Positions 1,399 to 59,147 of a stretch of DNA of 64,000 nt are shown piece after piece. The translations under genes were made by a program, and so were the position numbers. Origin of the DNA: an uncultured Collinsella sp. (lineage in GTDB: Bacteria; Actinomycetota; Coriobacteriia; Coriobacteriales; Coriobacteriaceae). The notes beneath the pieces are model-generated. The model did not search any database, was not told the origin of the DNA, and worked only from the letters and a program-made list of their open reading frames with translations. Positions within the stretch are counted from its first letter, which is position 1. Every line of letters starts with the position of its first letter. Location of the stretch: assembly GCA_949287065.1 (NCBI GenBank), contig CASEEV010000077.1, positions 1-64,000 on the forward strand. The letters run 5' to 3'.

Positions 1399-4095
1399 CT
1401 AACGGGCGCGCGTGCGACGCTTGCCTTCCGAGCTCTCGAGGGCGCGGATCTCGCGTTCCGCCGAGGAGGGGGAGACGAGCGTCTTGATGCCCAAGCGGAT
1501 GAGCGCAAGGCTCGTGCGGAGGCGCCCGCGTTTTTTGGCGGGGCGGTGCTGCGCCGGGCGCGCAGGCGCAGGCTCTGCTGCGGGAGGCTCGATGATCGTG
1601 GCTTCGACGCGCGAAACGGAAGGCGCAGCCTTCTTGGGCGTTTCCGGCTTCTTCTCGGGCGCGGGAGCCTGGGCGTTGCCGCTTTGCTGAGCGGTTTCAG
1701 AGGCCGCAACCGTCGGTGCGTTCGATGCGGCAGGGGCAGTCTGCTCTTCTGCCGCCGTGAGCTCCGCTGCGGGCGCGGTGATGCCGGGGACAAACTCCGG
1801 CACAGCCGCCGATGTGGGCTTCGCCTCGGGGGCGTTTGCGCGCTTCTCTTCCTTCTCGCGCTTCTCGGCTGCCTCCTGGGCGCGTCGGTAGGCGTTGAGG
1901 ATCATGTACTGCTGCGAGTTGAACGGCTCCTCGCCCTCGTGGCGCGGCGCGGTTTCCCATTGGCCCTCGCTCGAGAGCACGCGTGCCTTGACGTTGTCGG
2001 AGAGCTGCATGTGCATGTAGCCGCGCACGAGATCGCGGCACTCGGGGTCGAGCACGGGGAAGGCGATCTCGACGCGGTGCTCGGTGTTGCGGGTCATCAT
2101 GTCGGCAGACGAGAGGTACAGCGTGTCGGCCTCAACGCCGAAGGAGTACACGCGGGCATGCTCAAGGAACCTGCCGACAATGGAGCGAACGTGCACGTTG
2201 TCGGTTTTGCCCGGGATGCCGGGCTTCAGGCAGCAGATGCCGCGGATGATCATCTCGATGCGGACGCCTGCGCGCGACGCTTCGGAGATCTTGTCGATAA
2301 CCTCGCGGTCGGTGAGCGAGTTCATCTTGAAGAAGGCGTAGGCTTCCTCGCCGGCGCGGGCGCGTTCGATCTCGCGGTTGAGGCCGGTCATGATGAGGGG
2401 CTTGAGGCCGACCGGGGCAACGCCGAGGTACTTGTAGCTGCCCTTGAGGTTGCCGAGCGACAGGTTGCGGAAGAACGCGTTGCCGTCTTCGCCGATACCG
2501 GGATGGGCGGTCATGAGCATGAAGTCGGAGTAGAGCTTGGCGGTCTTCTCGTTGAAGTTGCCGGTTCCGAGGAGCGTGATGCGGCTCACGTCAAGACCGG
2601 TGCGGTAAGTGATCTGGCAGATCTTGGAGTGGCACTTAAAGCCCTCGGAGCCGTAGATGACCGTGCAGCCCGCAGCTTCGAGACGCTCCGCCCACTGGAT
2701 GTTGTTGGCCTCGTCGAAGCGGGCGCGCAGCTCCATGAGCACGGTGACCTCTTTGCCGTCTTCGGACGCCGAGATGAGCGACTCGCACAGGCGCGACTGC
2801 TTGGCGACGCGGTAGAGCGTGATGCGGATGCTGATGCACTCGGGATCGTGCGCCGCCTCGTGCACGAGGTCGAGGAAGGGGTCCATCGACTCGTACGGGT
2901 AGAACAGCAGCTTGTCGCCCTCCATGACCTGTTCGCGCATCGAGCGCCCGGGTACCACCATCGGGCTCGGCTGCGGCGTTACCGGGCGGAAGAGCACTTC
3001 GGCGCGCGACGCCGCGGGGATCTTGTCCTCTACGGCGTACACGTAGCTCAAATCGAGCGGCATGTCGGCAACGTTGACGGCCTTGCTCGAAAGCTTGAGG
3101 GCCTTGCGGATGACCTTGAGATCCTCCTTGTTGAGATGCCCCTCCACCTCGAGGCGCACGGGCTGCAGGCGCAAGCGCTGCTTGAGGATGCGCTTCATAT
3201 GCTGACGGTAATCGTCGTCTTCCTCGACGCCTTCGCCGTCGGGGTCGATGTCGGCGTTGCGCGTGACGCGGATAACCGCGCGGTCGGTCGGCGCAAAGGA
3301 GCCGAAGCAGCTGTCGAGGCAGGCCATGACGATGTCCTCGATGAGGATGTAGCGGTACGCTTGGCCGGCCTGCGACTTAACGCGGACCTCGACCGTGCGG
3401 GGGAGATGGCTGGGAACCTCGATAAGGCCGAGAAGGTCCTTCTCGTCGACGCTGTCGAGCCCGCAGACAAGGTAGAGCGCGCCGTTGCGCAGGTTCGGGA
3501 AGGGGTGACGCGGGTCTATGACGAGCGGGGAGATGATGGGCGCGAGGTAGCGGCGGAAGTATTGCTCGACAAAGGTGCGCTCCTCGTCGGTGAGGTTGTT
3601 GGGCCGCAGGCGCTCGACGCCGTAGTCCTCGAGCTCTTCCTCGATTGCGTTGAACCCCGCCTGCGCGCGCTTGAGAAGCGGCGCCAGGTCGGCGAAGATG
3701 CGGTCGATCTGCTCGCTCGCGGTGAGGTTCTCCTTGTTCTCGACCGGCTGCCGCTTGAGCGTGGCGAGGTCGGAGAGGCCGCCGACGCGCACCATGAAGA
3801 ACTCGTCGAGGTTGGAGAAGAAGATCGAGACGAACTTGAGGCGCTCGTAAAGCGGCACGCTCTCATCGAATGCCTCGGTGAGCACGCGGTTGTCGAACTT
3901 GAGCCAGCTGAGCTCGCGGTTCTGCGTGTAGGTGAGGTCATAGCGGCTCGGCCGCTTGGTGCCGCCCTCTGCGGCGAGCGTGTCTACCTCGGCAAAATTC
4001 TTCTTTGCCTTCTTGTGCTTCTTGTCTCCCTTGCTGGGGGAGGAGTGCTTCTCGGCGGGGGTGCCGAGATCGTCGTCTTTGTGCTTTGCAGCCAC
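1399..4095 (-). CDS. ppk1: Polyphosphate kinase 1 with long C-terminal extension
   Basis: Makes inorganic polyphosphate from ATP, reversibly, through a phosphohistidine. The core spans about residues 50-745. The phosphohistidine candidate is H489 in CHSKICQITYR, followed by GTGNFNEKTAKLYSDF, a hallmark of the PPK1 C-terminal phospholipase-D-like fold. The protein has 898 residues against the usual ~690-740. The excess is a Lys-rich N-terminus (1-48) and a tail (746-898) of Ala/Pro/Glu/Lys low complexity that ends in a more ordered-looking basic segment (about 857-890). The start is GTG, with AGGAGG four bases upstream. It appears to be transcribed alone: aroQ upstream ends in its own terminator, and a TTGACA element lies in between. 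Confidence 0.96.
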   Translation of the reverse strand: MAAKHKDDDLGTPAEKHSSPSKGDKKHKKAKKNFAEVDTLAAEGGTKRPSRYDLTYTQNRELSWLKFDNRVLTEAFDESVPLYERLKFVSIFFSNLDEFFMVRVGGLSDLATLKRQPVENKENLTASEQIDRIFADLAPLLKRAQAGFNAIEEELEDYGVERLRPNNLTDEERTFVEQYFRRYLAPIISPLVIDPRHPFPNLRNGALYLVCGLDSVDEKDLLGLIEVPSHLPRTVEVRVKSQAGQAYRYILIEDIVMACLDSCFGSFAPTDRAVIRVTRNADIDPDGEGVEEDDDYRQHMKRILKQRLRLQPVRLEVEGHLNKEDLKVIRKALKLSSKAVNVADMPLDLSYVYAVEDKIPAASRAEVLFRPVTPQPSPMVVPGRSMREQVMEGDKLLFYPYESMDPFLDLVHEAAHDPECISIRITLYRVAKQSRLCESLISASEDGKEVTVLMELRARFDEANNIQWAERLEAAGCTVIYGSEGFKCHSKICQITYRTGLDVSRITLLGTGNFNEKTAKLYSDFMLMTAHPGIGEDGNAFFRNLSLGNLKGSYKYLGVAPVGLKPLIMTGLNREIERARAGEEAYAFFKMNSLTDREVIDKISEASRAGVRIEMIIRGICCLKPGIPGKTDNVHVRSIVGRFLEHARVYSFGVEADTLYLSSADMMTRNTEHRVEIAFPVLDPECRDLVRGYMHMQLSDNVKARVLSSEGQWETAPRHEGEEPFNSQQYMILNAYRRAQEAAEKREKEEKRANAPEAKPTSAAVPEFVPGITAPAAELTAAEEQTAPAASNAPTVAASETAQQSGNAQAPAPEKKPETPKKAAPSVSRVEATIIEPPAAEPAPARPAQHRPAKKRGRLRTSLALIRLGIKTLVSPSSAEREIRALESSEGKRRTRAR

Positions 4096-57782: not shown

Positions 57783-59147
57783 ATGAGCGCTCTGCTCGGA
57801 ATTATAGCCCCCGTTTTCTGGTTCGTCGTGGTTGTTTCGTTTCTCGTGTTCGTGCACGAGGGCGGGCACTTCTTGGCCGCACGTGCCTGCGGCGTCCGTG
57901 TCACCGAGTTCTTTCTCGGCATGCCGTGCCGCTTCAATCTGAGCCACGTCTCAAAGCGAATCGGCACGAAGTTCGGCGTGACCCCGCTTTTGCTCGGCGG
58001 GTACGCCATGATCTGCGGCATGGAGCCCTTCGACGACGGCCTCGCTCCTCGCGCGCTTGCCCTTGTTCACCGTCGCGGCGTCATGAGCGTCGAGGACCTT
58101 GCGCAGGAGCTCGGCTGCGACGCTGACCGCGCGCTTGACATCTGCGTCGCGCTACAGGGCTGGGGCGCTCTCGCGCCGAGGTACGACGAATCCAAGGGCG
58201 AGCGCCCCGGCGGTCGGTATCTTGCAACGACCTACGCCTCCATGCCGCGCGACGGCGAGGGCCGCACCATCTACGACGGCAAGGCGTTCGACCGCGCCGG
58301 GTCAACGCAGGAGGGCGCTGCGTGGGAGCCGCCTTTCTCGGACGACGAGTTCTTTGCGCGCGAGCGTTCGCGCACCTACGTCGGCGTTGGCTTCTGGAAG
58401 CGCGCGTTCATGCTCGTTGCCGGCATCGTCGTCAACATCGTCGTCGGCTTTGCGCTTATGATGAGCGTGTACTCCATCATCGGCTTCACCGTTGCCCAAG
58501 ACGTCAACACCATCGGATCGGTCGAGCAGGACTCGATTGCCCAAGAGATCGGGCTTGCTCCCGGCGACGCCATCCTGTCGATCGACGGTACGCCAACCGA
58601 TACCTGGACCGACGTCTATACGGCGCTGCAAGAGGCAGCCGGTTCCGGTGAGTTCGAGCTCGTGTTCGATCACGACGGGACGACCGAGACCGCAGCGGTG
58701 GATCTTGACGAGGGCGAGATGCTCGGCATCGGCGTGTCGACCGAGCTCGTTCGGCTCAACCCCGTCGATGCGGCGCAGGTCTCGTGGTCTTCAATCGTCC
58801 TGACTGCTCAGTCCGTTGCGAGCCTGCTCAATCCCTCGCAGACGCTCACCGTTCTCGATCAGTCGACCTCGGTGGTGGGGATTGCCGTCATGTCCGCGGA
58901 GGCCGCTTCAGCGGGCGCGGCAACGCTTCTCAACTTCGCCGCCGCCATTTCGTTCTCCTTAGGGTTCATGAACCTGCTGCCCATCCCCCCTCTCGATGGC
59001 GGCAAGCTTCTCATCGAGATCCTCCAGGCAGTCTTTCGCAGACCCGTTCCGCTCAAGGTGCAAAACGGACTCTCGGTTGTCGGCCTTGCGCTCATCGGCG
59101 TTCTCTTCGTCTATATGCTGCGCATCGACTTCATGAGATTCTTCTAA
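57783..59147 (+). CDS. rseP: Site-2 protease RseP with winged-helix-like insertion
   Basis: Intramembrane metalloprotease that cleaves membrane-bound regulators. The 454 residues show HEGGH (25-29, zinc and catalysis) in the first helix, GGYAMICGME, a PDZ domain (~236-325), and NLLPIPPLDGG (397-407) with the third zinc ligand. Between residues ~83 and 195, where the family normally has a short cytosolic loop, sits an extra segment. Residues 88-152 read as a helix-turn-helix plus wing (SVEDLAQELGCDADRALDI, then a Gly-rich strand pair). The ATG has GAGGAGG upstream. It lies between dxr and ispG, the usual place. Confidence 0.94.
   Translation: MSALLGIIAPVFWFVVVVSFLVFVHEGGHFLAARACGVRVTEFFLGMPCRFNLSHVSKRIGTKFGVTPLLLGGYAMICGMEPFDDGLAPRALALVHRRGVMSVEDLAQELGCDADRALDICVALQGWGALAPRYDESKGERPGGRYLATTYASMPRDGEGRTIYDGKAFDRAGSTQEGAAWEPPFSDDEFFARERSRTYVGVGFWKRAFMLVAGIVVNIVVGFALMMSVYSIIGFTVAQDVNTIGSVEQDSIAQEIGLAPGDAILSIDGTPTDTWTDVYTALQEAAGSGEFELVFDHDGTTETAAVDLDEGEMLGIGVSTELVRLNPVDAAQVSWSSIVLTAQSVASLLNPSQTLTVLDQSTSVVGIAVMSAEAASAGAATLLNFAAAISFSLGFMNLLPIPPLDGGKLLIEILQAVFRRPVPLKVQNGLSVVGLALIGVLFVYMLRIDFMRFF

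Follow-up and report, generated by a model that had tools for sequence, protein, structure and literature searches.

The window, meaning the whole 64,000-nucleotide stretch of DNA that was analyzed, carries toward its end an open reading frame that by score, by catalytic motifs and by the presence of a PDZ domain is a member of the RseP family (TIGR00054, M50) and is predicted to encode a site-2 protease. The gene stands in the usual order frr-uppS-cdsA-dxr-rseP-ispG-proS, the neighbors being judged from their translations, and the single PDZ domain (PDZ_6, 37.8 bits at residues 244-293, Pfam cut-off 27) lies between TM2 and TM3, as in group I site-2 proteases. Pfam finds no CBS domain in the protein, and the chain stops after the last transmembrane helix, so that the feature by which group III is recognized is absent. 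A second, smaller M50 protease (a 286-aa frame; L002/L003, G000:C77:66752-67294) was observed 8 kb downstream of rseP, just beyond the end of the window. The features of rseP are collected in the table below.

Features of rseP, with positions in the window, strand and the basis on which each was assigned
Feature	Position	Strand	Basis
rseP (454 aa, predicted site-2 protease with inserted winged helix)	57783..59147	+	TIGR00054 164 bits (cut-off 147.55); Pfam M50 142.7 bits
HExxH zinc motif HEGGH (residues 25-29) in TM1	57855..57869	+	sequence; conservation of 90% or more in alignment A1
Membrane-reentrant beta region and GG-Y strand (residues 53-77)	57939..58013	+	modelled strands E53-56, E63-67 and E75-77; equivalence to the E. 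coli MRE beta-loop via alignment
Winged-helix domain (residues 86-153)	58038..58241	+	AlphaFold2, Foldseek, profile searches, conservation
Recognition-position helix H3 (residues 114-126), acidic	58122..58160	+	model; mean net charge -4.0 over residues 113-126, 147 sequences
Trp127, family signature right behind H3	58161..58163	+	kept in 141 of 147 distinct sequences
Variable linker, wing to TM2 (residues 154-203)	58242..58391	+	alignment; loop lengths 95-175 residues
PDZ domain (approximately residues 234-323)	58482..58751	+	PDZ_6 37.8 bits; absent from Eggerthellaceae orthologues
C-terminal catalytic motif NLLPIPPLDGG (residues 397-407)	58971..59003	+	sequence; N397, P400, P403 and D405-G407 invariant in A1

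Comparison of the whole protein with the PDB returns the RasP and RseP structures (Foldseek, E 1.6e-21 to 1e-12; phmmer, 1.3e-33 and weaker), namely E. coli RseP (7w6x), A. aeolicus RseP (9j82), K. koreensis RseP (7w6y) and the B. subtilis RasP model (9a6w), with which it shares the core, the catalytic motifs, a PDZ domain and the overall fold of group I. Two differences set it apart. Firstly, it has only one PDZ domain. Secondly, in the alignment with 7w6x the query runs from residue 77 to residue 204 while E. coli RseP runs from 72 to 94, such that 126 residues stand in the loop between TM1 and TM2, after the GG-Y strand, where the E. coli protein has 21. This net gain of approximately 105 residues bears out the insertion described in the sequence-only reading (58029-58367, residues 83-195). 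As the extent of a domain, however, that span holds only in part: a conserved domain occupies approximately residues 86-153, whereas residues 154-200 form a variable linker. Beyond the core, the insert (approximately residues 137-195) comprises a variable wing and the linker, the latter being long in Coriobacteriaceae and Atopobiaceae and short in deep lineages. In one Atopobiaceae RseP (L053, genome G244) the loop is approximately 44 residues longer still (175 versus 131), owing to an Asp/His/Gln-rich extension past the winged helix.

Modelling of the full protein with AlphaFold2, using 37 relatives and giving a mean pLDDT of 85, places in the insert helices at residues 88-98, 103-110 and 114-126 and strands at residues 100-102, 130-133 and 150-153. 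Residues 88-153 therefore follow the order H1-S1-H2-H3-S2-wing-S3, with ten-residue block means of pLDDT of 84-95 over residues 81-140 and of 79-91 over residues 141-160, and the insert predicted alone yields identical elements (pLDDT 91, pTM 0.85). When the insert is compared with the PDB, most of the 50 best Foldseek matches are winged-helix proteins or contain a winged helix; the E-values are weak (best 0.0085), while the probabilities are mostly at least 0.9, and small targets, FtsK-gamma and Z-alpha among them, give TM-scores of up to 0.66-0.78. The single insert has no significant match in Pfam or NCBIfam. A profile of 21 diverse family members, searched against PDB sequences, matches DDRGK1 (1.8e-4), FtsK-gamma, MntR and other winged helices, and family members match the Pfam models PafC HTH, FtsK-gamma, TrmB and MarR. 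The spacing of helix, turn-helix, recognition helix and two strands that had been noticed in the letters is thus recovered by structure prediction, fold comparison and profiles, and residues 83-195 are predicted to hold a winged helix and to be neither disordered nor PDZ-like. On the strength of these models, the insert in the RseP of Coriobacteriia contains a true winged-helix domain.

Among known proteins, two comparisons are informative. The gamma domain of FtsK is likewise a small, independent winged helix carried by a membrane protein (TM-score approximately 0.66-0.75 on the target; profile E 0.008), but FtsK-gamma binds DNA, whereas in RseP the domain is acidic and lies within a loop of a protease. 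DDRGK1, a component of the UFM1 ligase complex, is membrane-anchored, and its winged helices join it to its partner UFL1. Its winged-helix region is the best PDB profile match to the RseP domain; it differs in being eukaryotic and in having no protease, and the match, weak per domain (approximately 14 bits), is no proof of common descent.

The domain was found in 120 of the 121 Coriobacteriia genomes whose RseP was read individually, in nearly all of the families that were sampled, whereas the 57 RseP proteins from other actinobacteria all lack it. Profile scores are 36-90 bits in Coriobacteriia, where those of the 21 sequences from which the profile was built hold by construction and the remainder are independent, versus at most -1.9 bits in the other 57. 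Since the profile scores at this exact place in Coriobacteriia and not in other actinobacterial RseP, the match to the domain is not a chance one. The domain is therefore conserved class-wide and is not special to the genome of the window, and the possibility that it is an already described loop common to all actinobacterial RseP is ruled out. The exception (L233, genome G006) is a Coriobacteriia RseP with a short loop and no domain, and the domain is thus not essential to the protease. In a tree built by a quick method without the insert and PDZ columns, the Coriobacteriia RseP proteins are all set apart from the rest by a branch supported at 97%, and the nearest outgroups (L113, L124) have a short loop. 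Two changes are needed to account for the domain on this tree, one of them a gain and the other explained by L233, which either lost the domain or branches at the base. Judging from this distribution, the class acquired the domain at its base or close to it, and in this sequence-based reconstruction it did so once. A search for a phage relative of the domain by tblastn gave no match.

What the domain does must be considered in light of where it lies. The substrates that E. coli RseP cleaves are type II membrane proteins, which have a cytosolic N-terminal part; a membrane-reentrant loop of the enzyme binds them and enters the membrane from the cytoplasmic side (PMC4597795). By homology with this enzyme the loop and its domain would be on the cytosolic face, and linear order together with that homology suggests a position next to the active site. 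With the reentrant loop on one side of it and TM2 on the other, the domain would be near the substrate's cytosolic end, where the N-terminal, cytosolic segment of a type II membrane protein passes in and out of the enzyme. In that place it may dock either a cytosolic partner or the substrate's cytosolic domain (for example, that of an anti-sigma factor together with its sigma factor), and would thereby add substrate selection inside the cell to the extracytoplasmic filter formed by the PDZ domain; for the PDZ region of E. coli RseP, a size-filter role has been put forward (PMC10202637). We consider it reasonably probable that the winged helix acts next to the substrate entrance, on the cytosolic side, as a module for gating or protein docking and that DNA binding is not its role; the broader idea of a substrate- or partner-sensing module is plausible. 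Counting for docking or gating are the position directly after the substrate-contacting reentrant loop and the retention of the winged helix in Eggerthellaceae RseP proteins that have lost the PDZ domain, while the finding of DDRGK1 as best PDB profile match counts for protein docking in particular. Counting against it is the fact that winged helices can be kept as mere scaffolds.

A rival view holds that the winged helix is a structural spacer or stabilizer, acquired a single time by a loop that tolerates inserts and retained without any partner to bind. The loop does accept insertions, as unrelated inserts are found at the same place in two other actinobacterial RseP groups, and the lineage of L233 lacks the domain. 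Nevertheless, residues 75-131 are free of gaps in 147 distinct Coriobacteriia RseP sequences, Leu124 is present in all 147, Trp127 is retained as tabulated, and Gly99 occurs in 135 of 147. Such fixed length and a near-invariant Leu/Trp signature throughout the class, next to a linker that varies freely, do not favor a spacer, and the gap-free core, the two signature residues and class-wide retention together argue for a selected function. A spacer role is thus possible, but we regard it as unlikely. The inserts of the other actinobacterial families (L133-L135 and L205-L208, f34; L126 and L202-L204, f65 and f78) measure approximately 70-100 residues and are probably helical, judging from their sequences; homology of the winged helix to either set was rejected, as hhalign found no profile similarity.

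A role as a small-ligand sensor that switches the protease has also been considered, by analogy with group III site-2 proteases and their ATP-binding CBS domain. Cytosolic ligand-binding accessory domains do exist in the wider site-2 protease family, SpoIVFB being a case in point (PMC6242693), although there the CBS domain is C-terminal and no PDZ domain is present, whereas the winged helix of Coriobacteriia RseP is in the TM1-TM2 loop. Winged helices seldom bind ligands alone, however, and the column counts do not point to a conserved polar pocket; a ligand sensor is quite improbable.

With respect to nucleic acid, the mean net charge of the core (residues 88-135) is -4.9, ranging from -11 to 0 with none of the 147 sequences positive, and that of the recognition helix H3 is -4.0. 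The corresponding mean in a control of 20 MarR-type matches of the same class, drawn from five of the same genomes, is +0.6, a comparison that is uncorrected for relatedness and in which one control match (L271) looks spurious rather than a real helix-turn-helix. The basic or neutral DNA-facing helix and core expected of DNA-binding winged helices are therefore not seen, and the suggestion made from sequence that the module might even face DNA is disfavored. Though the fold is that of DNA-binding winged helices and FtsK-gamma and MarR are among its nearest matches, an acidic core and H3, set against near-neutral MarR controls, make it highly improbable that the domain binds DNA, either tethering the protease to the chromosome or being released as a regulator. 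The domain probably grips proteins instead.

For a docking module, the natural question is what might be docked. The anti-sigma zinc finger PF13490, sought as a hint to substrates, was absent from 12 of the 13 genomes searched. In the genome of the window itself (G000:C44), a gene for an ECF-type sigma factor (L247 1489-2142) is followed by a frame (1791-3317) encoding a protein with one likely membrane segment, an N-terminal part before the segment and a long part after it. This single-segment protein is a candidate anti-sigma factor and a candidate RseP substrate.

Group I site-2 proteases are defined by their PDZ domains. The RseP of Eggerthellaceae (approximately 380 aa; L056-L059, L150, L152-L181) has the winged helix and no PDZ domain. 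A search of 121 genomes with this protein gave a match in 120, and among the matches listed, the near-full ones continue across the TM2-TM3 junction with no gap of PDZ size; the PDZ-less form is present in essentially all of the Eggerthellaceae genomes that were searched, and a single PDZ loss in the family would be consistent with the tree. A second, unrelated PDZ-less RseP (L148, genome G336; 318 aa), without a winged helix, was observed outside the Coriobacteriia. In Eggerthellaceae genomes, a gene for an HtrA-type protease (L246 1615-3051) was also seen upstream of, and on the same strand as, the pyrH-frr-uppS-cdsA-dxr-rseP cluster. Of the 36 Eggerthellaceae genomes in which a single contig carries both, 33 have it at most approximately 21 kb upstream, a proximity that is a correlation from one lineage, and no such gene was found near rseP in the Coriobacteriaceae or Atopobiaceae genomes looked at. 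One could extend the docking proposal such that control of Coriobacteriia RseP comes from within the cell, with the winged helix docking the cytosolic regulatory domain of substrates and the PDZ filter of Eggerthellaceae thereby becoming dispensable, the protease there being read from its cytosolic face; this extension we hold to be speculative and rather doubtful.

Searches of the open-licence literature for site-2 proteases that contain a winged helix or helix-turn-helix, or for those of Coriobacteriia, returned nothing on point, and within that literature both the winged-helix RseP and the PDZ-less RseP of Eggerthellaceae are apparently undescribed. The winged helix is a real, class-wide variant of a known protease family, with a function that we infer. 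RseP-type proteases are taken as controlled mainly from outside, through site-1 cleavage and the PDZ filter. A class-wide and presumably cytosolic module, together with a family that has dispensed with the PDZ domain while keeping that module, offers a direct way to ask about signals from inside the cell, and does so in a class that includes common gut bacteria, in which envelope-stress pathways are little known.
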